37,562 nucleotides of DNA from Candidatus Heimdallarchaeota archaeon (lineage in GTDB: Archaea; Asgardarchaeota; Heimdallarchaeia; Heimdallarchaeales; Heimdallarchaeaceae), in contig JAEOSZ010000019.1 of the NCBI GenBank assembly GCA_016840095.1, positions 1-37,562 of the forward strand. The letters run 5' to 3'. Within the stretch, counting starts at the first letter, position 1. Each line of letters begins with the position of its first letter. Under the pieces are notes generated by a model. That model did no database searches and had not been told where the DNA came from. It worked only from the letters and a program-made list of their open reading frames with translations. Shown one piece after another: positions 4,554 to 8,547 of this stretch. A program made the translations under genes and the position numbers.

Positions 4554-5828
4554 TTAGAGAATTTTTTCTCCTTCTTCTAAACTTAACATTGTAAAACCAC
4601 TTATCATCTTAGGATAGAAATCAGTGGCTTTTTGAGGCATTCTTTCATGATTCTTAGAAACTTTTAGAACTTCATCAGCAAGTGTTGGATTGAGGATGAA
4701 AGCAACTTTGTATTTACCATTATCAACTTCTTCAACAGCTTCATTCCACCATCTTTCGTAGAAAATATCATCATCTATATGAAGATCTTTTAATCCCATA
4801 ATTCCATGGAAAATCATATCTCTTAAGATAACTACATCAAGATTTTTGAATTCCTCACTAGCATCGCTTACATATCTGTTAATTGCTGAGATATCCTTCA
4901 TAATCAAAGAAACAGCTCTTCCATCTTGATACATAACAAATGAATGTTTATCCTTATTTTCTTCTAAGAATTTTGGTATTTCAGTTTTCATAATTTCGTT
5001 CATATCAAAGAACATCTTTAGTTCATTCATTTTTCCTTCAGAAACATCTTCTTTAGCTAAACAGCGATGAGTTGCTAAGATATTTAATCCTTCATCTTCA
5101 ACTGGAACAAGATATGTCATTCTGAATTCATATGCAGCATATTCATTTTGATCTGCAGCTTCGTTTCTTCGCATATTTCGATATGTGATAGCTGTTTCGT
5201 ATCTGTGGTGCCCATCTGCTATTACTAATTGTTGGTCTGCAAAGACATCTTGGATAACTTTGATTTTTGCTTGATCAGAAACTTTCCATATCCTGTTATA
5301 CACACCTAAATCGTCTTTAGCTTTAATTAATGGTTCTTCTTTAGCCACTTCATCAAATATCTCTATTGTTTTTTTATCAGGATCAGAGTAAAGTATAAAT
5401 CCAGTTTCTAATGTATGCCTTGTTGTCTTAAGCATATTCAGTCTATCTATTTTTGGACCTTTGTGTGTTTTCTCATGGGGAAGAACAATGTTTTCTTCAA
5501 ATGGATGGAGTCTTAGAGCTCCTATGAAGCCTTTTCTAATGTATTTCTTGCCAAATAATTCATATTCTTGAAAATAAACGTAAATTCCAGGTACCTCATC
5601 TTTTTCTAATATTCCTTCAGCTAACCATTGATCTAACCTTTGTTTTGCGATTTCATACCTGTTTTCTTCAATCGGTAAGGTGAGTCTACAATAGTTATAT
5701 TCTGACTGAGCATAGTATGCGTTTTGCATTTCTTCATCTATTTTGTCATACGGCTGGACTATTAGTTTCTCAATGTCCCCGGCCTTGGCAGTATATCTAA
5801 TTGCTTTGAATGGTTTAATGTCTACCAT
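4554..5828 (-). CDS. DUF1015-family protein (possible serine-pathway enzyme)
   Basis: 424 residues from ATG 5828; a TTG nine bases upstream is the longer option. The product shows the full DUF1015 pattern: VDIKPFKAIRY at the start, VQPYDKID, the strand motif GIYVYFQEY, ALRLHPFE and VLPHEKTHKGPK in the middle, and VIADGHHRYETAITYR (about residues 202-217). The DGHHR box recalls ParB/Srx-fold nucleotide-dependent enzymes, to which free-serine kinases (SerK, SbnI) also belong. I recall DUF1015 genes sitting next to serA and serC in clostridia and other anaerobes. Here serA and its aminotransferase are only 3 kb away on the same strand, though separated by the actin and panE-like genes. A role as a serine/phosphoserine enzyme is therefore a reasonable inference, not established. 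Its 5' region is shared head to head with the actin gene. Confidence 0.85.
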   Translation of the reverse strand: MVDIKPFKAIRYTAKAGDIEKLIVQPYDKIDEEMQNAYYAQSEYNYCRLTLPIEENRYEIAKQRLDQWLAEGILEKDEVPGIYVYFQEYELFGKKYIRKGFIGALRLHPFEENIVLPHEKTHKGPKIDRLNMLKTTRHTLETGFILYSDPDKKTIEIFDEVAKEEPLIKAKDDLGVYNRIWKVSDQAKIKVIQDVFADQQLVIADGHHRYETAITYRNMRRNEAADQNEYAAYEFRMTYLVPVEDEGLNILATHRCLAKEDVSEGKMNELKMFFDMNEIMKTEIPKFLEENKDKHSFVMYQDGRAVSLIMKDISAINRYVSDASEEFKNLDVVILRDMIFHGIMGLKDLHIDDDIFYERWWNEAVEEVDNGKYKVAFILNPTLADEVLKVSKNHERMPQKATDFYPKMISGFTMLSLEEGEKIL

Positions 5829-6025
5829 ACTTATCAAGCTTGCACATCAGAATCTCTATTTTAATTTTTTTGTTAGAAGATGAAAAGAAACATACTCATT
5901 CTTATGATAATGAACAAAGCATCAAAAAACTTCAAATGATATACCATTTTTCAACGATATACCTTTTTTATGATATATCCTTCGATATTCTTAATAACTC
6001 AACTAAGAGAAGTTATCTCTGAATA

Positions 6026-7495
6026 TTGGTGATAAAAATAGCAGCAATCGACAAATCTGAAAAACCACAACATTGTGGAAAGAAAATGCAGAGACTCTAC
6101 ATCCGGAAAGGAACCAAAAATAGAAAGTGGATACCTGTTGGATATTATTGCAACCTCTGTTCAAAAGTAATAAAAAACAGAGAACTGGTTTTATATCAAA
6201 GTATAGAGGAACTTCGTTCTAGACAAGAATTAGTAGATAATGTTACTAATAAGCAAAAAATTGTACTTGATATTGGTGATAAACTAACCAAAGTAGGATT
6301 TGCTGGTGAAAAAGAACCTAGGTTCATATTTGATACTAGATTATATATTGATCAAAACAACAAGTCATTCATTCAAAAAGCTGATAAAATAGAAACTAGC
6401 AGAAAAGTAAAGCATCAAAAATCCCTACTAGAAGGAAACGGAGAGCAAATTGTTAATTCTGATGATATGGTTCTATTTTTAACACATGTTTTTGAGAAAC
6501 TTGGAACAAAACCTCAAAACAAAAGCATCATGCTAATTGAAAAAAGCTACAAAAACAACTATGTAGAATATTACTATGGAAGGCATGAAGAAATCAAAGA
6601 AACCACTTTACCAGAAGAAATCAAAGAGAGGTTATCAAACAAACCAAAAATCGAAAAAGTCAATTATGATAAATACATAAAATATCCAAGAAGAGAATTA
6701 GCTTCGATCTTCTTTGATTACTTTGATATTGCAAGAATCTACTTCTCAAATGGAGAACTTCTTTCATTGTACTCAAATGCCATGGTTACTGGTTTAGTTG
6801 TAAACATAGGTGTGAGAACAACACGTATTATCCCAGTTTTTCAAGGATTTATTGTTACACAAGCAATTAGCACAAGAGAGTTTGGAACCGAAGATGTTGA
6901 GAAAAGAATTCATGAGCATCTAAACACCCAAAAAAATGTACAAGGAAATTCTGAACATATTAAGTATCTGATAGAAAAACAGTTGCGTTTGGCTTCGGAA
7001 GAATATTGTTACATTTCTCTTGATCCGTCGATTGAACAAGAAAAGTGGTCAGAAAATGCGAAACTGATTAAGCATATCAATTTGTTTAATGATAATTATG
7101 TTAAGCTTGATCAAATAAGGTATTTGGCAACAGAGATACTTTTTGAAAAAGAGGAAATGAGTACTTCAACAAGAAAAGGAAATCTTGTAGATGCAGCAAT
7201 AGAAACAATACAAAAAGCCAATATAGATCTAGAAAAGGATTTGTATGAAAACATTCTCTTAACTGGTGGTGGAACCTTTTATAAAGGATTCAAAGAGAGA
7301 TTTCAAACGGAATTAGAAACAAAAGCACCTGAAAGTCTTGAAGTTAATGTACGACTAAAACCTAATAGATTAATTTCATCTTGGATAGGAGGATCTATTC
7401 TATCAAATTTAAAAACGTTTGAAACTAAAAATCTGTGGGTTACAAAGGATGAATATGAAGAAAGAGGTTCATCTGCAGTAGATAGATGTATTTAG
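6026..7495 (+). CDS. Zinc-ribbon/actin-family fusion protein (Asgard ARP-like)
   Basis: 489 residues, against about 375 for actin. Residues 14-50 form a zinc ribbon (H16, C17, C42-x-x-C45, with RLYIRK...WIPVGYYC as in archaeal ribbons); about 51-75 is a linker. Actin follows: phosphate-1 loop LDIGDKLTKVGFAGE at 81-95 with the Asp11 equivalent D82; NSDDM at 144-148; LLSLY at 245-249; phosphate-2 region TGLVVNIGVRTTRIIP at 255-270; adenosine loop LLTGGGTFYKGF at 411-422; C-terminus WIGGSILSNLKTF at 453-465, then W.TK.EY...G. This is eukaryote-type actin/Arp rather than MreB or ParM. Ungapped alignment with actin puts G243, N260 and R267 at Gln137, Asp154 and His161, so hydrolysis may be weak or lost. 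About 35 extra residues lie near 176-215. The start is TTG 6026 or GTG 6029; no ATG fits. Confidence 0.92.
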   Translation: MVIKIAAIDKSEKPQHCGKKMQRLYIRKGTKNRKWIPVGYYCNLCSKVIKNRELVLYQSIEELRSRQELVDNVTNKQKIVLDIGDKLTKVGFAGEKEPRFIFDTRLYIDQNNKSFIQKADKIETSRKVKHQKSLLEGNGEQIVNSDDMVLFLTHVFEKLGTKPQNKSIMLIEKSYKNNYVEYYYGRHEEIKETTLPEEIKERLSNKPKIEKVNYDKYIKYPRRELASIFFDYFDIARIYFSNGELLSLYSNAMVTGLVVNIGVRTTRIIPVFQGFIVTQAISTREFGTEDVEKRIHEHLNTQKNVQGNSEHIKYLIEKQLRLASEEYCYISLDPSIEQEKWSENAKLIKHINLFNDNYVKLDQIRYLATEILFEKEEMSTSTRKGNLVDAAIETIQKANIDLEKDLYENILLTGGGTFYKGFKERFQTELETKAPESLEVNVRLKPNRLISSWIGGSILSNLKTFETKNLWVTKDEYEERGSSAVDRCI

Positions 7496-8547
7496 TCTTT
7501 TATTCCCCATATCTCTTTTGTTTTTTCTTCTAGTTTTACTAGTTCTTCTAAAGAAGGTTTTTTCTTTCCAGCTTCAAATTTATGCACTTCATCTTGAACA
7601 TATTTGTTGAGAAGGGTAGTAACACCAAACTTCTTACCTTGTTCAACTAGATAACCATTCAGAAAGTCAATTTCAGTTCTTTTTCCACTCTCAATAGATT
7701 GAAGACTAGAAGATCTTAGATTCTTGTACTTTTTTCCAATCATCTTTAGAACTATTTGCTTGTAAATATGCTTGAAAGAGAATCCATGAAGTTCTTTCTT
7801 GGTTAAAGCAAGAGAATTTAGATTTAGATTATTTAATCTCTGCAATTGAACACCTTTAGCTTTACCTACTTCTACTCCTTCCGTCATAACTGTTAAAAAA
7901 GCAAGTCTTGTATATTTCCGCTCAAGCATTTTGCCTAGAGTCATACCACTAATTACACCAAATGAAGCAACTGATACATTGATCAATAATTTGGTAAATT
8001 TCTCATTCATAATATTCTCAGAATAAGAAGTTGGAACAGTTTTTGAGAGTAGATTAACAAGTTTATCGTCTATTGGTTTCTTTGGACCTTCTTTTCTACC
8101 TATTACCATTTCTCCAAGAGAGGTTTTTATTGCTTCTGCAGGCCCATTTCTAGATGCACCAAAGCTTACAACACATCCAAGCAATTTTCTTCCATCTATC
8201 TGCTCAGCTAGTTTCTCCTCGAACATACCATTAGTCATTGTAACTAGTGTGTAATCTTTGTTCAATTTAGATTCAATTCTATCATATGCATCTTGAATGT
8301 CAGTTAGTTTTGTAACAATAAATACAAGATCAAGTTCTTCTGGTAGATTTTCTATAGTTAGAACTGGCATAATATTATCTTTAACTATGTATTCTCCACT
8401 TATCCCTGTAACCTTTACACCCCGATTTTCTATCATGTCCAAGGTCTCTTGATGCTTGCACACAACATAAAGAGGAAAATCATTTTTGGCTAAATCTGCA
8501 GCAATTACAGTTCCAATAGCTCCAAGACCAACTAGTGCTGCTTTCAT
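7492..8547 (-). CDS. 2-dehydropantoate 2-reductase (ketopantoate reductase)-family protein
   Basis: 351 residues. The N-terminal Rossmann domain begins MKAALVGLGAIGTVIAADLA, with the G-x-G-x-x-G nucleotide loop at residues 7-12. LDLVFIVTKLTDIQDAYD (about 74-91) gives the conserved (V/T)K of the family, TMTNG (about 104-108) the substrate loop Asn, and MNEKFTKLLINVSVASFGVISG the start of the C-terminal helical domain with the catalytic-type Lys. The C-terminal domain has the usual SSSLQSIESGKRTEIDFLNGYLV motif, with the S-x-x-D/E substrate-binding residues. The reaction would be NADPH-dependent reduction of ketopantoate to pantoate for CoA synthesis, but paralogues act on other 2-keto acids. 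A T-rich terminator separates it from serA, and a CTTTTAATAC box about 25 bp before ATG suggests its own leaderless promoter. The stop overlaps the convergent actin gene by 4 bases. Confidence 0.85.
   Translation of the reverse strand: MKAALVGLGAIGTVIAADLAKNDFPLYVVCKHQETLDMIENRGVKVTGISGEYIVKDNIMPVLTIENLPEELDLVFIVTKLTDIQDAYDRIESKLNKDYTLVTMTNGMFEEKLAEQIDGRKLLGCVVSFGASRNGPAEAIKTSLGEMVIGRKEGPKKPIDDKLVNLLSKTVPTSYSENIMNEKFTKLLINVSVASFGVISGMTLGKMLERKYTRLAFLTVMTEGVEVGKAKGVQLQRLNNLNLNSLALTKKELHGFSFKHIYKQIVLKMIGKKYKNLRSSSLQSIESGKRTEIDFLNGYLVEQGKKFGVTTLLNKYVQDEVHKFEAGKKKPSLEELVKLEEKTKEIWGIKD

Follow-up and report, generated by a model that had tools for sequence, protein, structure and literature searches.

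The window, the whole stretch of 37,562 nucleotides of Heimdallarchaeota DNA that was analysed, encodes an actin-related protein that combines the loss of catalytic residues, an N-terminal ribbon of nucleic-acid type and a promoter array found at one place in the genome. Asgard actins and actin-related proteins (Arps) are known, and this combination was absent from the literature matches listed. We put at about 50% the probability that its family serves as an actin-related adaptor that neither hydrolyses ATP nor polymerises and that likely binds nucleic acid through its ribbon. The preliminary description recognised the fusion; neither the promoter array nor the lost active site features in it. 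The coding features are as follows.

6026..7495, + strand: reading frame (CDS) of the zinc-ribbon actin-related protein
6065..6172, + strand: N-terminal ribbon, residues 14-49, three predicted strands, zinc itself presumed
6071-6076 and 6149-6160, + strand: predicted metal ligands H16 and C17, and C42 and C45, respectively
6173..6250, + strand: linker, residues 50-75, variable and partly helical (mean pairwise identity 32%)
6251..7492, + strand: actin fold, residues 76-489

The CDS encodes 489 amino acids from a TTG codon at 6026, or 488 codons from an alternative GTG start at 6029. The draft genome that contains it has 3.44 Mb (165 contigs, 89% complete, 7.8% contaminated). As had been proposed, the C-terminal part belongs to the actin family: it has the actin fold and matches Pfam PF00022 with an E value of 1.8e-60 and 205 bits, above the curated cut-off of 27, while NCBIfam returned actin relatives only, all below threshold. 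The family counts 32 homologues besides this protein. A further search, in which the best 7991 candidates were scored, gave at least 29 rows. The named close homologues come from Candidatus Heimdallarchaeota or Heimdallarchaeaceae, bar one partial protein of 267 amino acids (P0124, 50% identical) labelled Candidatus Thorarchaeota, which could reflect spread beyond Heimdall archaea or a binning error. The 33-row family alignment leaves out the partial proteins P0014 and P0035-P0037, and the partial P0123 and P0124 are absent from it too.

The ribbon shows a basic HC...CxxC pattern N-terminal to the actin part and is intact in all 17 genomes that carry the gene, with its four Cys/His ligand positions (H, C, C, C), which would presumably hold zinc, kept at 17/17 loci. 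A frame artefact or a mis-called start was ruled out by an in-frame, conserved ribbon at every one of these loci. At two of them (L068 and L079, from G011 and G016) a non-standard ATT codon is the probable start, and a gene caller would consequently miss the first knuckle of the ribbon. Structure prediction gave a three-stranded beta ribbon both with the rest of the protein (strands 21-26, 34-40 and 47-49) and for the ribbon modelled alone (22-28, 34-41 and 48-50), with pLDDT values of 72-92 across the block. Eight to nine of its 36 residues are Lys or Arg. The ribbon is also the best conserved part of the protein, with a mean identity of 70% as against 49% for the actin part; of 528 protein pairs, 527 are more identical in the ribbon than in the actin part.

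Residues 1-75 matched no Pfam or NCBIfam family above cut-off, and a Foldseek search with the ribbon only returned 0 matches at E values up to 1e-3. Across 227 Asgard genomes, a ribbon profile gave 17 strong matches, every one on the ribbon-actin gene; 15 further genomes gave weak matches only (E 7.6e-4 to 0.019), several of them with internal stops. Just two short proteins, P0121 and P0122, matched the profile. A free-standing ribbon family was considered and rejected, because P0121 is a fragment of the same fusion and the strong Asgard matches all fall on the ribbon-actin gene. The other protein, P0122, has 76 amino acids with the same ribbon and an unrelated tail, and may be either a free-standing ribbon or a frameshifted fusion.

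Upstream of the gene, between it and a divergent neighbour, lies a short array of near-palindromic sites.

4554..5837, - strand: DUF1015 protein, divergent neighbour
5936..5948, + strand: promoter array copy 1 (ATGATATACCATT), GRTATAYC from 5938
5954..5966, + strand: promoter array copy 2, GRTATAYC from 5956, 18 bases on
5970..5982, + strand: promoter array copy 3, GRTATAYC from 5972, 16 bases on
5988..5997, + strand: TATA-like stretch (TTCTTAATAA) just downstream of array copy 3, its role presumed
7492..8547, - strand: ketopantoate reductase-like protein (ApbA/PanE), convergent neighbour

Three GRTATAYC copies with the exact start-to-start spacing of 18 and 16 bases stand upstream of the gene in 15/15 gene-bearing genomes of the genus. 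In the two genomes where the gene sits at another place, motif copies are kept: G021 has five, the first three 18 bases apart, and G023 has a pair 17 bases apart. Counted without the form GGTATACC, the motif reaches a density of 16.7 per kb over 180 bases upstream of the gene (51 matches in 17 genomes) as against 0.08 per kb elsewhere in the same loci. Allowing up to two mismatches, we find the triple in 17 of the 227 Asgard genomes, namely in the 15 promoters of the genus, in the G021 promoter (two mismatches) and in a deletion scar in G007, and its reversed control pattern in one of the 227. There is one array per genome. No array was found in G008 and G020, which have lost the gene, although DUF1015 is still there (in G020 its first part only, at a contig end), which indicates that the array goes with the actin gene and not with its divergent neighbour. 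The three-copy array likely controls the ribbon-actin gene.

A regulon was considered and rejected. In 56 relatives, a looser motif pair turned up at nine further places (seven genomes), and its reversed control in two genomes; all nine fall within reading frames of 231-486 codons and were attributed to chance or coding sequence. Ten gene-bearing genomes together hold 14 occurrences of the strongest single site, ten of which are at the ribbon-actin promoter. The other four, together with four in five genomes that lack the gene, fall in open frames of 190-922 codons; the reversed control gave ten matches in the same 15 genomes.

Within the genus, the gene stands beside DUF1015 and, where the contig permits, the ketopantoate reductase-like gene; 2-hydroxyacid dehydrogenase and class V aminotransferase genes are further neighbours. 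G021 has phosphoglycerate kinase and an endonuclease/phosphatase-family protein instead, and no neighbour is common to the genus, G021 and G023. A function based on an operon was therefore rejected, and none was read from the neighbours. Elsewhere on the contig, a small acyl-carrier-type protein (PF00550, 4292-4534), of a kind unusual in archaea, adjoins a luciferase-like monooxygenase (PF00296, 3333-4280); homologues of the two are present in 13 and 14, respectively, of 18 loci compared. The contig also encodes a penicillin-amidase-type acylase (PF01804, 21626-24229), a GH127 beta-L-arabinofuranosidase (PF07944, 27928-29928) and a protein with a ParB N-terminal domain (PF02195, 29992-31086, - strand).

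In a different explanation, the ribbon serves for protein-protein docking, to RNA polymerase or the ribosome for example, and a separate, dedicated transcription factor binds the array. We regard this explanation as possible but rather improbable: no regulator among the neighbours travels with the actin gene, and G021 and G023 keep motifs of the array type and none of the genus neighbours.

The actin part of the adaptor that we favour is altered at the following positions.

6551..6673, + strand: insertion of 41 residues, shared by the family, in subdomain 1 between actin residues 110 and 111
6752..6826, + strand: replaced catalytic region, with Q137 to G (6752-6754), A138 to E, D154 to N (6803-6805), D157 to V, G158 to R and H161 to R (6824-6826)

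For comparison we used 38 canonical actins, 35 from the Asgard genomes searched and three database proteins, leaving out one stop-split sequence and keeping one partial. D154, D157, G158, K213 and H161, each present in 38/38 canonical rows, are found in 0/33 family rows, and Q137, likewise universal in the canonical set, in one of 33; at H161 all 33 rows carry Arg. In contrast, the Asp and Gly of the P1 loop, G156, E214, G301 and G302 are kept in 33/33. Similarity to the canonical consensus is 0.47 for the family overall. Over contact residues that we take to form each surface, it falls to 0.14 in the D-loop, 0.17 in the sensor loop, 0.14 in the hydrophobic plug and 0.23 in the pointed face, and rises to 0.76 in the barbed-end cleft, a value reached by 0.1% of random residue sets. 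The P2 loop plus Q137 scores 0.23, and the W-loop 0.84 (0.3% of random sets). Decay of the actin part is one-sided: the catalytic residues, the D-loop, the sensor loop, the plug and the pointed face have been lost or exchanged, and the barbed-end cleft is conserved. Judged by the catalytic positions Q137, D154 and H161 and by the D-loop, sensor loop and plug, the protein falls outside canonical actin and lokiactin. Together with the basic and strongly conserved ribbon, the lost catalytic and filament residues support the targeted, scaffold-like Arp envisaged in the preliminary description.

An intact barbed-end cleft and W-loop would also suit a cytoskeletal Arp that caps ordinary Heimdall actin or polymerises together with it, with a ribbon that serves only for stability or docking, and a further actin gene is present in 16 of the 17 gene-bearing genomes (none was found in G023). 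We consider such a role unlikely, as the lateral contacts and the plug are gone and the most conserved piece of the protein is the ribbon, not the actin part.

For the adaptor we infer a sequence of steps, given here in order of decreasing confidence. The protein would not hydrolyse ATP, although nucleotide may still be held, the P1 loop and adenosine residues being kept. It is predicted not to polymerise: it has lost the pointed face, the D-loop and the lateral contacts, and the 41-residue insert sits at a lateral contact. The barbed-end cleft could grip a single partner, either the pointed end of an ordinary actin, much as dynactin Arp11 caps the pointed end of a filament, or a helix, as nuclear Arps hold an HSA helix; the product of the further actin gene is a candidate. 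The basic ribbon would target the protein to DNA or RNA. Lastly, the ribbon-actin might bind the array and regulate its own promoter. With one array target per genome, moving with the gene, it is the simplest candidate for the array-binding protein, and autoregulation is favoured over a separate factor solely by that single target and by an array that moves with the gene as the neighbours do not. The near-palindromic form of the sites argues against autoregulation, and we doubt, more than we believe, that the ribbon-actin itself binds the array. Less probable again is that this one protein links actin with the chromosome, its ribbon reading the array at its own promoter while its cleft holds an ordinary Heimdall actin filament by the pointed end. 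Were this long shot true, an archaeon would feed the state of actin into gene control or tether DNA to actin. The array offers an immediate and cheap DNA-binding assay.

Whether other Asgard genomes hold the same fusion, a question raised by the preliminary description, was answered by finding it in 17 of 227, all in two families of one order. A pattern scan of genome contigs with a single protein gave 35 matches, none of them confirmed, and phage records gave no match at E values up to 1e-5. We built a tree of 39 rows that included 14 of the 33 family proteins, 11 of the 38 canonical actins, six of seven eukaryotic proteins (five actins and one named Arp1, with nuclear Arps not among them) and four of seven members of one Arp group. 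The ribbon-actin family came out as a single, long-stemmed clade (100/100), and the canonical and eukaryotic actins as another (95/96); the other Arps lay on long branches of unsure place.

The gene has also been lost. Between DUF1015 and the ketopantoate reductase-like gene, the gap without an actin gene measures 96 bases in G008, 101 in G020 and 229 in G007. In the G007 scar (L155, contig C159, about 6174-6402), 145 bases resemble the G011 promoter (88%), array included, and 75 bases the 3' end of the G011 gene (95%); the last 30 bases of the gene remain in G020. Both neighbour trees place G008 as sister to the window's genome, and the one neighbour tree that includes G007 and G020 joins them to the gene-bearing G010 and G011. 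If the ancestor had the gene, as the scars indicate, these placements imply at least two losses in the genus, counted from G007, G008 and G020 and excluding G012, G015 and G018, where contigs end or neither neighbour was found. Loss in such close relatives makes the ribbon-actin look like a dispensable, lineage-specific protein. Heimdall archaea are close relatives of the eukaryote ancestor, and the fusion had been taken to suggest that actin relatives with new jobs arose before eukaryotes; with its confinement to two families, its own long-stemmed clade and its loss in close relatives, this is not supported.

A partition device like ParMRC, with actin motor and DNA adaptor in one protein and the upstream repeats as centromere, would account for an actin homologue with repeats and one array per genome, but is extremely unlikely given the lost motor residues, the repeated loss of the gene and an array that stands directly upstream of a TATA-like box, as expected of a regulator site. 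ParM/ParR/parC is likewise an actin homologue with upstream repeats; it differs in being a filament-forming ATPase with an adjacent adaptor gene, whereas in the ribbon-actin the motor residues are lost, no neighbour is kept outside the genus and the repeats are placed as in a promoter.

With lokiactin and other canonical Asgard actins, the ribbon-actin shares the actin fold, the barbed-end cleft, G301-G302, E214, the P1 Asp and Gly and the C-terminal Cys. Unlike them, it lacks Q137 (bar one of 33 rows), D154, D157, H161 and the canonical D-loop and H73 loop, and has the 41-residue insert and the N-terminal ribbon. Among the matches listed from open-licence PMC literature (titles and starts of abstracts) the fusion was unreported, which is weak evidence of absence. 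Asgard genomes with Arps beside lokiactin have already been reported, and Lokiarchaeum ossiferum has four actin homologues, three of which cluster with Arps (PMC9834061, in excerpt). The Arp groups met here also have changed active sites. In a second divergent Asgard group (L129-L135, the Arps of genus g11), H161 is replaced by Arg and Q137 by Asp, each in 6/7, and these proteins too are likely without normal ATP hydrolysis. However, 0/11 Arp loci compared match the ribbon profile, and their barbed-cleft similarity is 0.40-0.62 as against 0.76 in the ribbon-actin family.

Dynactin Arp11 follows the same one-sided logic, the barbed face usable and the pointed face not. We know of no ribbon in Arp11, nor in the nuclear Arps Arp4 and Arp8. 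Human Arp8, a monomer that fails to polymerise, carries Glu at Q137 and Ser at H161 and retains D154, G156 and D157 with ATP bound (PMC3510490, in excerpt). The ribbon-actin resembles Arp4 and Arp8 in having an actin fold with insertions at filament contacts, and goes further than Arp8 in its active site, where D154 and D157 are lost, and in adding a ribbon. The ribbon-actin makes testable whether non-filament jobs of actin relatives, linked to chromatin or RNA, arose in archaea independently of the nuclear Arps.
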